From a virus, in the IMG/VR virus record IMGVR_UViG_3300018405_000064, positions 1-23,132 of that record: a stretch of 23,132 bases of DNA, one strand, 5' to 3'. The notes beneath the pieces are model-generated. The model saw only the letters and a list, made by a program, of their open reading frames with translations. It had not been told where the DNA came from and ran no database searches. Of this stretch, positions 1 to 14,226 are shown piece after piece (position 1 is the first letter of the stretch; every line of letters starts with the position of its first letter). The position numbers and the translations under genes were made by a program.

Positions 1-32
1 CGGCGCTCTTTCCACTCTCGTAAAGTCGGCAT
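1..32 (-). CDS. Tail-tip gene, first codons only (partial)
   Basis: An ATG at 32-30 overlaps the TAA of the preceding tail gene by one base (TAATG), a coupling arrangement seen elsewhere in this window. Only about ten codons (MPTLREWKER) lie inside the window before it runs off the left edge. The N-terminus recalls small tail proteins (DUF1833-like) that follow the tape measure in enterobacterial phages, but ten residues are too few for a firm family call. Position and coupling are the main evidence. Confidence 0.45.
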   Translation of the reverse strand, partial: MPTLREWKER

Positions 33-508
33 TAATCAGCCCTCGGCATAACGGCAGTGACCAGATAATCCAGCCAGTAGCCGTAGTTCTCTGGCGCCTC
101 GACGATCCAGTCGTCGTAGTCCTCGGTGATGTCCTCGATACCGTTGCAAATGACGCTGGCGGTCCAGATGACGATATTGCCGTTTTTACTGGTCTGTACC
201 GGCATGCTGATGAAATGCAGGGTCTGCAGCTGCACGCCCTGCGTATCGCCGAGGTCAATGCGCATCTGGAACCAGTTACGTCCACGGTCGCAGTACGTCG
301 GTGATCGGAGCCACGATTTAAACCGTTCAGCCTGCTGCAGCGTGAATTTCCACTGCAGAGACCAGGTCGATTTCAGGTCAGTGGTTAGCGGCGTGAAGAT
401 AGCGGGCCCAATTGCCGGCTGCGTTGTCTGCCACGCAGTATCCTGCGTCATGTTCTGGTCTGCGCGCTGAGGAAGCGGCAGCATATCCGGGTATGAAACT
501 GTTGCCAC
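32..508 (-). CDS. Minor tail protein after the tape measure
   Basis: A 158-residue protein encoded two small genes beyond the tape measure, where siphophages place distal-tail and tail-tip proteins. The start chosen is GTG at 508, not the ATG at 523, because GGAGG lies a few bases before the GTG and inside the codons that the longer reading would use; the ATG at 523 falls in the T-tract of a terminator. No signal peptide or membrane segment is visible. The sequence is rich in Trp and Tyr (for example the stretch DDWIVEAPENYGYWLDYL), as in beta-rich structural proteins. The exact role (distal tail or tip) is inferred from position only. The end overlaps the next gene by one base. Confidence 0.75.
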   Translation of the reverse strand: MATVSYPDMLPLPQRADQNMTQDTAWQTTQPAIGPAIFTPLTTDLKSTWSLQWKFTLQQAERFKSWLRSPTYCDRGRNWFQMRIDLGDTQGVQLQTLHFISMPVQTSKNGNIVIWTASVICNGIEDITEDYDDWIVEAPENYGYWLDYLVTAVMPRAD

Positions 509-523
509 GTTTCCTCCGAGCAT

Positions 524-544
524 AAAAAAAGCCGCGGCTGCGGC
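524..544 (-). terminator. Intrinsic terminator upstream of the minor tail gene
   Basis: Read on the minus strand, GCCGC-AGCC-GCGGC forms a 5-bp GC stem with a 4-nt loop, followed by seven T. It ends the segment holding the antisense gene pair and lies directly before the start of the tail gene at 508, so late transcripts must read through it. Confidence 0.75.
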
Positions 545-587
545 ACTGATCGAATATCAGGATGTTGCTAAATGTGTACCACTGTTA

Positions 588-606
588 CTGTGTGTTTTTC
601 ACACAG
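588..606. repeat. Perfect inverted repeat before the zinc-ribbon gene
   Basis: CTGTGTG, five T, CACACAG: 7-bp perfect arms placed just upstream of the ribosome binding site of the plus-strand gene at 623. It could be an operator or a hairpin in the 5' leader. The spacing (CTGT-N11-ACAG) does not fit a LexA box. Confidence 0.5.
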
Positions 607-622
607 AGAAAGGATGGGGTAT

Positions 623-835
623 ATGTCAGAGAAATTCAGAGTCAAACTCTCCTGCCCTGATTGCGGCAGTGAGCAATTCATATTTAGCGCCGAACCGCAC
701 ACCATAGACAATGTCGAGTCCTGTGCATCCTGCGGAAGGGCTATCAGCAAAAACGATGTCTTTCGCCACAGCAAAGAGTTCCTGGTTGATACGCTCAGAG
801 ACAGGTTGAAGGGAACCAAATTTAAGCTCAAGTAA
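623..835 (+). CDS. Small zinc-ribbon phage protein, opposite strand
   Basis: A 70-residue plus-strand ORF. The start is ATG 623, with AAGGA about 9 nt upstream. Two CxxC knuckles, C11/C14 and C34/C37, form a treble-cysteine or ribbon-type zinc site; the C-terminus is basic (KGTKFKLK). Small proteins of this layout (MSEKF..., CPxCG..., CxxCG, basic tail) are familiar accessory genes of enterobacterial prophages with no settled function. It opposes the late operon, so it must have its own promoter; I could not pick a convincing one upstream, though an inverted repeat sits at 588-606. All 70 codons are antisense to the minus-strand ORF 626-913. The zinc motif makes this the better supported of the two. 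Confidence 0.72.
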   Translation: MSEKFRVKLSCPDCGSEQFIFSAEPHTIDNVESCASCGRAISKNDVFRHSKEFLVDTLRDRLKGTKFKLK

Positions 836-913
836 GGAGATTAGGCTATCAAGTTGCGATTGAGCCTCGCTGGTGTCGACCGATATGGATGCCAGCAATT
901 TTTTATCTTCCAT
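626..913 (-). CDS. Small phage protein of unknown function, antisense to the zinc-ribbon gene
   Basis: A 95-residue minus-strand ORF. ATG 913 has GGAG 7 nt upstream, a good ribosome binding site, directly after a terminator at 928-949. The N-terminal part (DKKLLASISVDTSEAQSQLD) is hydrophilic and helical-looking, and the codon choice looks ordinary for an enterobacterium. Its last 70 codons are the exact reverse complement, codon for codon, of the plus-strand zinc-ribbon gene, and its TGA (628-626) abuts that gene's ATG. Either both are translated, or only the first 26 codons are an old gene start and the rest is a fortuitous antisense frame. No function recognised. Confidence 0.5.
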   Translation of the reverse strand: MEDKKLLASISVDTSEAQSQLDSLISLLELKFGSLQPVSERINQELFAVAKDIVFADSPSAGCTGLDIVYGVRFGAKYELLTAAIRAGEFDSEFL

Positions 914-927
914 TTGTCTACTCCAAT

Positions 928-949
928 AAAAAACCCGCCGGAGCGGGTT
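928..949 (-). terminator. Intrinsic terminator after the post-tape-measure gene
   Basis: On the minus strand AACCCGC-TCCG-GCGGGTT is followed by a T-tract: a 7-bp stem with a TCCG tetraloop. It lies between the stop of the 81-residue gene (955) and the start at 913. Its sequence closely resembles the terminator at 4706-4729. Confidence 0.85.
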
Positions 950-954
950 GGTTT

Positions 955-1200
955 CTATTCGACAACTTGTGGCGACTTAGGAATATCTTCGATTATGACA
1001 TCGAATTTTTTGATATCCCCATCCTGAGGCGTAACCTTAAATTCCGAATTGGCCGGAATGATTCCTTCCACGATCGTGCCGTTAGTCAGTTCAAGCCTAA
1101 ACTTTACCAGCCTGTTGTATCGGAATATTGTTGTTTTACCAACATCAATACCCATACTGTATCCGTCTACTGGCCCTGAAAACCTCTTTATTTCATCCAT
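955..1200 (-). CDS. Small protein coupled to the tape measure gene
   Basis: An 81-residue protein. ATG 1200 overlaps the tape measure TGA as TGATG, implying translational coupling; the TTG three bases earlier is a less likely start. The sequence is beta-rich and soluble (KFRLELTNGTIVEGIIPANS) with an acidic end and no signal peptide, membrane segment or recognisable motif. A terminator follows directly. Position suggests a tail-associated or accessory protein co-translated with the tape measure. Function unknown. Confidence 0.7.
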   Translation of the reverse strand: MDEIKRFSGPVDGYSMGIDVGKTTIFRYNRLVKFRLELTNGTIVEGIIPANSEFKVTPQDGDIKKFDVIIEDIPKSPQVVE

Positions 1201-4200
1201 CAAAAGTCCCCATTTGCTCTGCGAGATACTCCAAACGTCGATTGTAGCGTACTGATATATGGTCCGTTACGCTCTGCATCAGAAACCAGAAACTCAATTA
1301 TATAGTTACCATCAACCTGATTAGCCCCCATGTATTGAGGCTTAGCGTTCGACACCTGATTGTTGATGACCACCTGCACGTTTAACCCCTGGTTTGAGTT
1401 CGATATTCCAGAAACATTACCCGAATCGCTTTTTTGGCTTTGATACTCACTACCGGTCGATGCCTTTTTGATACTCGGAGAACCAGTAACCTCTTTGTTA
1501 CTGAATACCTTCCCGCTATCACCTGGAATCATGAACAGGCCTTTGCTGGTCTGCATGAATTCAGGAAGGTTCCCCTCACCGACCGGATAGACACTGCCCG
1601 CAGTTACAGGGCCACCATTCTTACGGCCCAGCGCTTTAGTTAGAGCAAACGCGCCAACCAGCGCAGCACCACCGATGATAGCCGCTGCACCAAACGAGCC
1701 CACAGATGCAACCAGAGCAGCAGGAAGCCATGCGGCCATTGTCGTACCGGCAGAGGCTGTGCTCGCCGCAGTGGTAGTGGCAAGGCCACCTACCTGCGCC
1801 GCGGTCGTGGTAGCTATCGCCGCATTCTGAGCTGTTGCACCCATGATGGCGGATTTGGCTTGTTGGATACCCATTTGCACGAACGTATCAATTACGTCGT
1901 TCAGAATGGTATTGCCGATTGAGCGGAGTGCGTCGTTAGCTGACATACTGCCCGTTATTACTCCAGTTAACGCATTGGATGCTTGACTACCAAACGCATC
2001 AACCGCAGCGCCCAAAGCTTCATAACCGATGCTTTGCTGAGTGAAGAGCGCCCACTGAGCCGCGATACGCTGCTGCTCGTACTGAGTATTAGCAGCATTC
2101 ATCAATGCAAGTCCATTAGCAGTGATCTGGCCCTTTTGGGTTTCAAACTGTTGGATGAGCGCTAATTCTTGAGCGTGCTGGTTGGCAAGGCGTCGCACCG
2201 GATCTACCTCACCTTGAGCCTGTTGCTGTGGTGTCACCACCTGCCCTGCACGTATTTTTGCTAAAGCGACCTGGTGCTTCTGTTCTAACTCCTCGCTAGC
2301 CTGATTATATTGCTCTTGAGAAATTATAAGCTGACCATTGGTATCTTTTTGGTCTTTCAGACTATCAAGCGCCTTTCTCTCAGCGGCGTAATCAGCATTC
2401 TCTTTTAGGATTGGGACTGCATTCTGCGCCTTAAGCGCAGCAACTTTATCCCAAGCGGCCGCAGCATCACGCTCAACCTGTGCAATCTGCTGTGGCGTGG
2501 CATTTGTTAACTTCTGCTTTGCTGCAAGAATCGCCTGCTCGCGTGAAAGGTCGCTTGTTGAGTCAGCCGATAAATTTGCTTTTTGGCTATATTCTTCAAG
2601 AACTTTCACGTTCCGTTGCTCTTGAGTTTCAGCTTTCTTAGCCTCCGCGGTTGCGTCCTTGGTGGCCTTTTTATTGTTTTGCTGCGCCTGTTGAGCATCA
2701 AATTCAGCGGCGGCCCTGTCACGAGCAAGGTTAACATCCGCCTCTGATCCACCGAGTTTCCTAATATCCTGCTCAGCCCTTAATTGCGCTCGCTTCCTGT
2801 CATTAAGTTCGCTCGGAAGTGTTACCTGATCCTGTAGCTTATCCAGATACTCCTGAACATCTTTCGGGCGTTCAACCATGAGGCTGCTGGAGTTGAATTT
2901 GTCTTTTGCCTTGGCAGCAAAATTAATCATATCTCCCAACTTGCTCATCATGCCGGCAGCAATTCCCGCTTCCTGTCCATCCCTGCGGAGCAAATCAATA
3001 CCTTGCTTCATCGTTCCGTTCAGCGTAGCGCGACCAATGTTAATAGCGTTTTGGGTCTGGCTTAGCCTGTTCTGGGCCTTCTCCAGCTCAAGGGTGGCTA
3101 TAGCTAGGTTATCCTGTGCGCCGCCAAGTGCCTCGGCAGCCTGCCGCCCTCTCGTTGTATTCGTACCCCAGTTTGCAATTTCTCTCTGTTGTCGCTGGAC
3201 AGCAGATGTCGCGTCATTGAATTCCTTTTGTGCGTCAGATACCGCGTCACTTAATTCAGGCAGGCTTTGGCTTAGCTTTCCTATCGTTGCCGCCAGCTCT
3301 GTATGCGACATCGTCTGGAATTTTGAGCTCAGATCGTTAACGCTATCTGCAAGGACATTAGCGTCATTCCTGGCCTCTTTTGCGCGCTGTGAAAAGTAAA
3401 GGATTGCACTAGCAGCAAGCATTGCCGCTCCGGCAGGCCCACCAATTAACCCGAGAGCCCTGCTAGCCAGGCTGGCACCAGATGAGAGAGCAATTTGAGC
3501 AGCCCTGTTTGCCGCCAGTGCTCGATTATAATTATCAACCGCACCGGCAGCCGCAACCCTTGCAACGGACAAGCGCTGTTCAGCTGCCGCAGCGTTGGTT
3601 TCGCTGATAGCAGTAAGCCGCATCATTTCTGCGAGCCTTATCTCATCCAAGGCCCGTTCTTTTGCGACCGCTGCAGCCCTGAGGTCTGCCGCTGCTTTAT
3701 TCGCGGCAGCCTGAGCCGCTAATGATTCTTCTGCTGAAAGCGTGCGAGATGCGGCAGCTGCTTTGATTTTAGCCGCAGTGGCCATAGTTAAGGCGCCGAC
3801 ATACCGACTCCCAAGAATAGCCGCGACACCAGTCAGCAACGCGCTCAGTCCGCCAATATTTTCACTGATGGTGACGACTGCATCACTGAAAATTGCCGCG
3901 CCTGTTTTAACCGTAGAATTTTCACCAAAAAACTTAGTGATGTTGTTGCCAGCAACCTGAAGAGCCTGGCTGATAGTCGTAGTTGTGTTGGCAAATTCAG
4001 CACCGATTACAGTCCCCTGAGAAAGAAGCCCATTCACCACAACGTCGGTGGTCAACTTCCCTTGCGCAGCCATCGCCCGCAGTTCGCCGATTCCAACACC
4101 TAAAGAATCAGCCAGTGCAACCATGAGACGGCTGCCTTGCTCGGCTACTGAGTTGAATTCCTCCCCCCTCAGAACGCCAGAAGCAATGCCTTGGGATAGC

Positions 4201-4688
4201 TGAATGATTGCGTTCTCAGCCTCCTGAGCTGTGGCACCGGAAACAACAAACCCCTGGTTAATGATTGTCGTGAGCTTGGCCAGATCTGCAGCCGACGTAT
4301 TGTACTGCCGCGTCCCTCTTTCCAGTCTGGCGTAAAGTGTTGCCGTAGCATCAAGGCTGCTTCTGGTTGCCTGAGTAACATCAAATACACGCTGAGTTAC
4401 ATCAGCTAATTGTTCTGTCGGCCTTACTGAGTTTGAGAGTTTATTGTTTACTGTCGCCCATGCATCAGCATATTCAGCCACCTGCTGAACGGAAAGAGCA
4501 GCAGTAAGTCCAACAGCTACGCGCGATAAACTCGACATCGATCGCTCTGTAGTATCAATAGAACGTGTTGTTTTATCAAAGCCACGCTCCATCAGATCAA
4601 GGCGCTGATTTACACGCTGCTGCGAAGTCAGCAGACCTTGCACATCCATCTCAATGTCGTAATAAATGCTGCCAGCGTTCTCTGCCAT
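1200..4688 (-). CDS. Tail tape measure protein
   Basis: A 1162-residue protein, the largest in the window, which sets tail length and is threaded inside the tail tube. Residues about 70-260 fit the conserved tape-measure N-terminal domain of lambdoid phages (VAEYADAWATVNNKL; later SQGIASGVLRGEEFNSVAEQ). Residues about 310-400 are Ala-rich helix, followed by long Gln/Lys/Glu-rich coiled-coil stretches. Residues about 890-945 resemble the lambda tape-measure C-terminal segment (ANDALRSIGNTILNDVIDTF). A Gly/Ala-rich hydrophobic stretch covers about 950-1015, and the recurring tape-measure motif GGPVTAGSVYPVGEGNLPEF follows it. By the lambda rule of about 0.15 nm per residue, the tail would be about 170 nm; this is an inference. 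A GGAGAAAGG ribosome binding site precedes ATG 4688. Confidence 0.97.
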   Translation of the reverse strand: MAENAGSIYYDIEMDVQGLLTSQQRVNQRLDLMERGFDKTTRSIDTTERSMSSLSRVAVGLTAALSVQQVAEYADAWATVNNKLSNSVRPTEQLADVTQRVFDVTQATRSSLDATATLYARLERGTRQYNTSAADLAKLTTIINQGFVVSGATAQEAENAIIQLSQGIASGVLRGEEFNSVAEQGSRLMVALADSLGVGIGELRAMAAQGKLTTDVVVNGLLSQGTVIGAEFANTTTTISQALQVAGNNITKFFGENSTVKTGAAIFSDAVVTISENIGGLSALLTGVAAILGSRYVGALTMATAAKIKAAAASRTLSAEESLAAQAAANKAAADLRAAAVAKERALDEIRLAEMMRLTAISETNAAAAEQRLSVARVAAAGAVDNYNRALAANRAAQIALSSGASLASRALGLIGGPAGAAMLAASAILYFSQRAKEARNDANVLADSVNDLSSKFQTMSHTELAATIGKLSQSLPELSDAVSDAQKEFNDATSAVQRQQREIANWGTNTTRGRQAAEALGGAQDNLAIATLELEKAQNRLSQTQNAINIGRATLNGTMKQGIDLLRRDGQEAGIAAGMMSKLGDMINFAAKAKDKFNSSSLMVERPKDVQEYLDKLQDQVTLPSELNDRKRAQLRAEQDIRKLGGSEADVNLARDRAAAEFDAQQAQQNNKKATKDATAEAKKAETQEQRNVKVLEEYSQKANLSADSTSDLSREQAILAAKQKLTNATPQQIAQVERDAAAAWDKVAALKAQNAVPILKENADYAAERKALDSLKDQKDTNGQLIISQEQYNQASEELEQKHQVALAKIRAGQVVTPQQQAQGEVDPVRRLANQHAQELALIQQFETQKGQITANGLALMNAANTQYEQQRIAAQWALFTQQSIGYEALGAAVDAFGSQASNALTGVITGSMSANDALRSIGNTILNDVIDTFVQMGIQQAKSAIMGATAQNAAIATTTAAQVGGLATTTAASTASAGTTMAAWLPAALVASVGSFGAAAIIGGAALVGAFALTKALGRKNGGPVTAGSVYPVGEGNLPEFMQTSKGLFMIPGDSGKVFSNKEVTGSPSIKKASTGSEYQSQKSDSGNVSGISNSNQGLNVQVVINNQVSNAKPQYMGANQVDGNYIIEFLVSDAERNGPYISTLQSTFGVSRRANGDF

Positions 4689-13356: not shown

Positions 13357-14124
13357 TTAAGCTGGTATGTATTTGCTGCCCTTGATGGCATTTTCCTCTT
13401 TCCAGAGGGGCTGGAGATTATCCAGCGCATTAATGACCATCAGATCGGTCACCCCTTCAGCGATAAAGGCTGATATGGGCTTACGGTGGTCAATCTCCCA
13501 TTCGCCCCTATTGTTCCATTTCATTCCGGGCTGGAATTGAGACTGTATACGCTCGCGCAGTTCGTCAGAGGTGTAGCCAATCGCCATTTTCACCTTTCCG
13601 CTATTCCAGGTGAGAGCATTATTGATTTCGTCATAGGCCTTGCGGCGCAGCTTATAGCAAGGGTCATGCTTTAAAACATTGCCGTAGTACGCCCTGCTCT
13701 TGGCCCGACCAACTCGACTACGTCTGGCTGCGTTCAGCCTGTTTTTCGCCGCCTCACTTAATATCTGCGGAGCATCTTTACGATCCCGCAAGGATAGGCA
13801 TTCAGTACATTGCCTCGTCGACACAAGTCGGGTGGCGATGTGGCCACGCTTGCATGCCACGCCTGTGAAATAGTGTGTTTTCCCCAGGTTGAGGGCTGTA
13901 TTTTTCTTCACTCTTGATGATTTCGACTGGGGAACCCCATCTGCTTTACGCATGCCACGCTTTCTTAATTCGAGGCACTTGCAGCATTGCTGGGTTGATA
14001 CCAGCCTGTCAGAAACATGCCCATGCTTACACGGAACATAACCACGGTAGTGTTTTTCTCCGCTGAGTCTCGCGGCTGCCAAAGATTGCTTTTGAAGCAA
14101 TTTCAGCTCATCGATATTGCTCAT
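13357..14124 (-). CDS. HNH homing endonuclease with duplicated zinc modules
   Basis: A 255-residue protein. ATG 14124 has GAGG 6 nt upstream; the longer open frame to 14217 lacks a binding site. Two copies of a zinc module lie at residues 25-52 (C32, H36, C47, C50) and 84-111 (C91, H95, C106, C109), both with spacing C-x3-H-x10-C-x2-C. After a basic linker comes a C-terminal HNH nuclease: D212-H213 in EWEIDHRKPISAF, then N236 in LDNLQPL and N245 in KEENAIKG. All expected HNH residues are present, so it is probably active. It is a free-standing gene inserted between two head genes, as homing endonucleases often are, probably cutting related phages that lack it. Confidence 0.88.
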   Translation of the reverse strand: MSNIDELKLLQKQSLAAARLSGEKHYRGYVPCKHGHVSDRLVSTQQCCKCLELRKRGMRKADGVPQSKSSRVKKNTALNLGKTHYFTGVACKRGHIATRLVSTRQCTECLSLRDRKDAPQILSEAAKNRLNAARRSRVGRAKSRAYYGNVLKHDPCYKLRRKAYDEINNALTWNSGKVKMAIGYTSDELRERIQSQFQPGMKWNNRGEWEIDHRKPISAFIAEGVTDLMVINALDNLQPLWKEENAIKGSKYIPA

Positions 14125-14226
14125 TTCAAACCTCACAGTAGGCTTCACAGATGATGGTGTCCGGCGCGCAGTCTGTGTTCTGCGTTTTCGGGAGCTACCC
14201 GAGCCGGACATGACCATTTTACCGCT

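Follow-up and report, generated by a model that had tools for sequence, protein, structure and literature searches.

Positions 623 to 913 of a 23,132-nucleotide viral sequence (IMG/VR record IMGVR_UViG_3300018405_000064, positions 1 to 23,132; termed the window below) very probably form a dual-coding cassette, in which two genuine protein genes occupy opposite strands of the same DNA in exact codon register. This reading is based on the comparison of related loci. The plus strand encodes a putative zinc-ribbon protein, the minus strand a protein with a confidently predicted alpha/beta fold, and each of the two frames appears to be under selection of its own.

Layout of the locus

A preliminary description of the window had noted two ORFs on opposite strands, at 623–835 (plus) and 626–913 (minus), each preceded by a good ribosome binding site. 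It further listed an overlap in exact codon register, a minus stop abutting the plus ATG, and bounding minus-strand terminators at 928–949 and 524–544. All of these elements were recovered in our analysis; the register holds over 626–835, and the terminators were located at 949–932 and 544–531. The features of the locus are as follows.

32–523, minus strand: flanking tail gene (phrog_384, virion structural protein), which adjoins the terminator in a cassette-free relative
531–544, minus strand: terminator downstream of the minus gene, ahead of the next tail gene
545–622, plus strand: leader of the plus gene, a presumed promoter region
588–606: inverted repeat CTGTGTG-TTTTT-CACACAG in the plus leader
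609–614, plus strand: Shine-Dalgarno sequence AAAGGA of the plus gene, 8 nt upstream of the ATG
623–835, plus strand: plus gene, start ATG at 623, encoding a 70-aa putative zinc-ribbon protein (CPDC...CASC) that matches NCBIfam NF047912
626–913, minus strand: minus gene, ATG at 913–911, encoding a 95-aa protein that matches phrog_29546
626–835, both strands: dual-coding overlap of 210 nt in exact codon register (-0 antisense frame)
836–913, minus strand: portion of the minus gene beyond the plus gene, 26 codons (78 bases), with the motif V-D-T-S-E...Q-L..L..LL
921–924, minus strand: Shine-Dalgarno sequence GGAG of the minus gene
932–949, minus strand: terminator upstream of the minus gene, with its hairpin also found at the empty site of Klebsiella phage 2 LV-2017
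955–1203, minus strand: small flanking gene between the tape-measure gene and the cassette, retained in the empty-site phage
1200–4688: tape-measure gene (PF20155)

The minus stop TGA is the reverse complement of the second plus codon (TCA, 626–628), and the plus stop TAA (833–835) is read as TTA (Leu) in the minus gene. The neighbours of the cassette in the window are phage structural genes. A consensus scan of the window yielded no sigma-70 promoter, terminators being present, and an Rfam search of the window matched no family.

The open antisense frame

An open -0 antisense frame is, taken alone, unremarkable. With a probability of about 0.16, this zinc-ribbon protein would be encoded without any in-register antisense stop; the longest in-register antisense runs of 14 other genes of the window span 56–221 codons. 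Such a frame is easily open, and the case had to be decided by means of relatives. Within the phage group (group 1), 72 distinct plus sequences were compared, and none contains an in-register antisense stop; the other two antisense frames of the same sequences contain 557 and 44 stops. In the relatives, the minus frame extends at least 25 codons beyond the plus stop. According to the preliminary description, the minus ORF would be spurious if its frame were often broken while the plus frame was kept. Such breaks are confined to degenerate relatives on Rahnella plasmids.

Selection on both frames

For 15 representatives that are less than 75% identical, the plus amino acids were held fixed and the synonymous codons were redrawn in 1000 resamplings. 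No antisense stop was observed in the representatives, whereas about 15 were expected (minimum 5 in 1000). The minus proteins are more similar to each other than under this null model (z 7.6–9.8; z 5.0–6.3 with eight deep clades only), and the plus proteins are more similar than under the corresponding minus-fixed null (z 20–30); the model assumes independent lineages and shared codon ancestry could inflate z, but the plus-only control given below argues against such an effect. The minus-frame codons opposite the four plus-frame Cys residues are GCA or ACA in 60 of 60 cases, even though GCA makes up only 21% of the Ala codons and ACA 11% of the Thr codons in this genome.

Within the overlap, dN/dS is 0.15 for the plus frame and 0.96 for the minus frame. 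By this measure the plus constraint dominates there, because the minus frame gives a value near 1. The synonymous divergence of the plus frame amounts to 0.29–0.31 in the overlap, compared to 0.48–0.86 in well-covered flanking genes.

Judged by their codon substitutions, the 78 bases read by the minus gene alone evolve in a protein-like manner. Ten disjoint pairs, compared over 23 codons past the plus stop, yielded a pS of 0.63 and a pN of 0.34 (p=3e-11), whereas the same DNA read in the plus register gave 0.39 and 0.40, respectively. The pooled dN/dS of this region is 0.32 versus 1.12 in the plus register (286 pairs, which are not independent). Between the window and its relative L016, pS is 0.76 and pN is 0.15. 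The motif hydrophobic-x-V/I-D-T/A-S/T-E...Q..L..LL of this region recurs across lineages.

A plus-only control was provided by zinc-ribbon relatives from plasmids and islands (L166, L168, L169 and L259–L272), which lack the minus gene. They are homologous end to end, through the C-terminus (profile match 99.3%, E 9e-21). In this group 20 antisense stops were seen and about 20 were expected with its own codon usage, and the antisense similarity was not above the null (z -0.7 to -2.5). Since the control lies at the null level, the signal of the phage group does not simply follow from the zinc-ribbon sequence or the genetic code. The preliminary description had proposed to examine whether both frames are constrained and whether each gene exists without the other. 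On the first point, the resampling z values, dN/dS and pS/pN support the notion that each frame has its own selection; on the second, the zinc-ribbon gene does occur without the minus gene.

The minus gene product

The minus protein matches phrog_29546 with E 3.3e-11 (residues 7–92 on positions 2–87 of the 95 in the profile), and the corresponding protein of phage KP12 matches the same family with E 8.9e-61. AlphaFold2, supplied with 26 sequences, predicted a compact alpha/beta protein with confidence (pLDDT 82.6, pTM 0.69), in which the elements follow the order strand-helix-helix-strand-strand-helix. The PDB and viral fold libraries contained no convincing match for this model (best VIA Z 4.2), which does not imply that the fold is novel.

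In L016, L017 and L037 (KY271395), the minus ORF forms a single reading frame with an upstream domain of 60-odd residues. Most of this domain is also found in Klebsiella phage ST13-OXA48phi12.5, which does not contain the cassette. Searching 395 genomes of the order with phrog_29546 gave no match and is uninformative; our alignment A4 did detect the minus gene in two of them, both times together with the plus gene, and besides gave one weak match inside an 882-aa frame.

These data bear on the proposal that only the zinc-ribbon gene is real and that the minus ORF is an antisense shadow, held open by the codon bias of the -0 register. The long open in-register runs in other window genes and the dominance of the plus constraint in the overlap (dN/dS 0.15 versus 0.96) are in line with it. 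It is nevertheless largely refuted, and we consider it very improbable: stops are missing (0 versus about 15 expected), the minus proteins show excess similarity, the plus-only control is clean, and the minus-only region is under purifying selection. Moreover, the minus protein has a confident predicted fold, and its ORF has been fused in frame to an upstream domain.

The plus gene product and its leader

The plus protein is a putative zinc-binding member of the ECs_2282 family. It scores 57.8 bits (E 7.2e-16) with NCBIfam model NF047912 (ECs_2282_CxxC), for which the curated cut-off is 37 bits, and the four Cys residues of its two CxxC pairs are invariant in all 26 aligned relatives. A relationship to Lar restriction alleviation proteins was considered and rejected, as the scores are below the cut-offs of both TIGR03655 (16.1 vs 39.6 bits) and PF14354 (14.9 vs 28.6 bits). 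PADLOC gave weak sub-domain matches only. The AlphaFold2 model, which lacks the zinc and is derived from a shallow alignment, is poor (pLDDT 54.9) and shows a hairpin and a C-terminal helix. A literature search found no paper naming ECs_2282, and the gene beside the plus-only zinc ribbons on plasmids gave no family match hinting at a function. As a guess, the zinc ribbon might serve as an accessory factor that binds nucleic acid or protein.

Three loci contain a damaged plus gene next to an intact minus gene: L131 and L132, which lie on the same contigs as L007, L008, L032, L033, L058 and L059, carry a nonsense mutation (after SA), and L313 has a Cys to Ser exchange. In phage PPompW (L161), the plus frame is shortened and the minus gene is intact. 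These broken genes indicate that some phages can do without the plus gene. The relatives on Rahnella plasmids (L167, L372–L374) possess a degenerate zinc ribbon, whose first pair is changed to CSICR or CYVCR, and no open minus frame.

Many early-region relatives carry a direct repeat of constant spacing (33–34 nt) ahead of the plus ATG; its unit is CCCCAACAG or CCACAG(TCA), and AAGGA follows. Scanning for CCCCAACAG-N25-CCCCAACAG identified 73 viral contigs. In 67 of these the leader is followed by the zinc ribbon, and three more are cut inside the zinc ribbon by the contig end. The remaining three (L384, L398, L400) encode a proline-rich ORF of 29–37 aa and then a membrane protein of 154–164 aa (phrog_6315), with no minus homologue. 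As the leader stands before the zinc ribbon as well as before another plus-strand ORF, it belongs to plus-strand genes; it seems to mark a position whose cargo can be exchanged. In the window's clade, the inverted repeat at 588–606 takes the place of the direct repeat and is a candidate promoter element. A LexA-type operator at this position was rejected, because the CTGT-ACAG spacing is 11 and not 8.

Distribution and annotation of the pair

Viral contigs, phages, plasmids and genomes were scanned for the pair. It occurs in diverged phages and prophages of Escherichia, Klebsiella, Enterobacter, Edwardsiella, Yersinia, Pantoea, Xenorhabdus and others, and in three settings. The first is the late tail region (window and close kin), the second the early left region (HK639 and many prophages), and the third a position beside antirepressor genes (KP12). 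In the pL operon of HK639, the minus gene directly follows the putL RNA. Two RNA-like elements were seen near the cassette in related contigs: an Rfam isrB sRNA match at L204:451–535 (80.8 bits, approximately 1 kb from the cassette), and 47 nt at L235:1316–1362 that resemble bacterial 16S rRNA (37 bits, below the gathering score).

A readable zinc ribbon is present on the opposite strand in 111 of the 114 loci fetched with minus queries. The preliminary description would have regarded the minus ORF as spurious if its homologues were never found without the plus gene, and this is nearly the case. Near-constant co-occurrence is, however, what has to be expected if the minus gene was overprinted on the plus gene, and it does not make the minus gene spurious.

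The minus gene is the annotated one in the phage records of KP12, HK639, Edno5, Evi, PPompW and others. In the RefSeq entries of E. coli, the plus gene is mostly listed; for strain TC24 it is the minus gene, though both frames are open there. This is an annotation fault: pipelines retain one strand or the other, inconsistently between records.

The many phage records that list the minus gene alone, the better predicted fold of its product and the plus frames broken in a few loci could be taken to mean that the minus gene is the sole real one and that the zinc ribbon is an accidental antisense reading of it or a dead relic. We give little credence to this explanation. The similarity of the plus proteins exceeds the minus-fixed null by a z of about 30, the Cys codons are kept in 60 of 60 cases, and zinc-ribbon relatives exist without a minus gene. 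Furthermore, the plus leader is conserved and also precedes another plus-strand gene.

Origin, mobility and possible use

The zinc-ribbon gene also occurs where the minus gene is absent. Judged from this distribution, the zinc ribbon is most likely the older gene, on which the minus gene was overprinted. The preliminary description had offered as alternatives that both proteins are made or that one gene was laid over another. The comparison supports both at once: the overlay is the most likely origin, and both proteins are presumably produced. In a tree of the plus proteins, which is based on few columns and weakly resolved, the dual label changes twice. One gain of the dual state and a later loss in the Rahnella plasmid relatives (two antisense stops) would fit.

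In Klebsiella phage 2 LV-2017 (KY271396), the small gene, the terminator and the tail gene are joined, and the same site is free of the cassette. This empty site shows that the cassette is an insertion, and it is a feature expected of a moron, i.e. an accessory gene inserted among phage structural genes. Between L016 and the window, the tape-measure genes are 52% identical and the plus proteins 91%, which fits a moving module.

We propose that the cassette is a mobile dual-coding moron. Members of its plus family also occur, with no antisense partner, on plasmids and genomic islands. In temperate phages of enteric bacteria, the minus gene would have arisen by overprinting on the reverse strand of the zinc ribbon, and it would have gained about 26 codons past the plus stop. 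Transcription of the plus gene may start in its own leader, probably in the prophage state, whereas the minus gene may be read within a lytic operon, which would be that of pL in most relatives and the late tail operon in the window phage. Plus transcription would then run against the operon, pL or late, in which the minus gene is read, and each transcript would disturb the other, so that the two products would largely exclude each other. The most likely use, although of rather low probability, is that a long-lived pair serves opposite life states: the zinc ribbon would be needed by the prophage and the alpha/beta protein during lytic growth, and convergent transcription over the shared DNA would form a mutual-exclusion switch.

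Convergent transcription across a prophage regulatory region would be expected to yield antisense RNA, and the leader repeats appear regulatory. Both points are compatible with a locus in which one strand codes for protein and the conservation of the other strand is due to an antisense RNA or a DNA element. This explanation is hardly probable, however, since the constraint tracks the codon positions of both frames, stops are avoided totally and in the exact register only, and the minus-only part is conserved at the level of amino acids. Avoidance of stops in a single frame is not to be expected of an RNA element, and the window is without an Rfam match.

Comparison with known systems

The cassette combines two properties of an antisense overlapping pair, namely a long overlap of ORFs on opposite strands (210 nt) and selection on both frames. 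Antisense overlapping genes have been reported for E. coli O157:H7: laoB (PMC5810103), pop (PMC7103648), ano (PMC5960689) and three more (PMC9927249). These cases resemble the cassette in that protein genes on opposite strands share DNA and that overprinting has been proposed. They are accompanied by expression or phenotype data, whereas the cassette is known from sequence comparison. At least some of them lie in other antisense frames (ano: -3), whereas the cassette keeps the exact register in many genera. The antisense overlapping genes found so far have been described as typically relatively young (PMC7457138). Most proposed antisense protein genes of bacteria and phages are based on few genomes or weak signals and are called young.

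In a survey of annotated viral ORFs, -0 overlaps were the longer antisense overlaps (PMC8903798). Their frame relation is that of the cassette; they rest on annotated ORFs, whereas selection on both frames was tested here, at one locus. The sense/antisense pair of Rodin and Ohno (PMC4082485) is similar with respect to the codon-by-codon complementarity of two unrelated proteins. It is, however, a hypothesis on an ancient ancestor, whereas the cassette is a present-day phage locus.

NF047912, to which the plus protein belongs by its score above the cut-off and its four Cys residues, is also the name used by RefSeq at the same locus in E. coli prophages. This family covers the plus strand alone and leaves the antisense gene undescribed; likewise, phrog_29546 (95 aa) resembles the minus protein and holds the minus strand only. 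Two separate database families are thus the two strands of the same DNA, and neither mentions the other. Together with the natural control group that does not contain the second gene, the pair is a good test bed for the birth of a gene atop another gene, and also for writing two proteins in complementary codons.

A further ORF among the structural genes

A free-standing ORF at positions 13357–14217 of the window contains two copies of a Cys/His-rich unit (GEKHYRGYVPCKHGH and GKTHYFTGVACKRGH) and has an HNH-like end (EIDHRKPISAF). It perhaps encodes a homing endonuclease among the structural genes.
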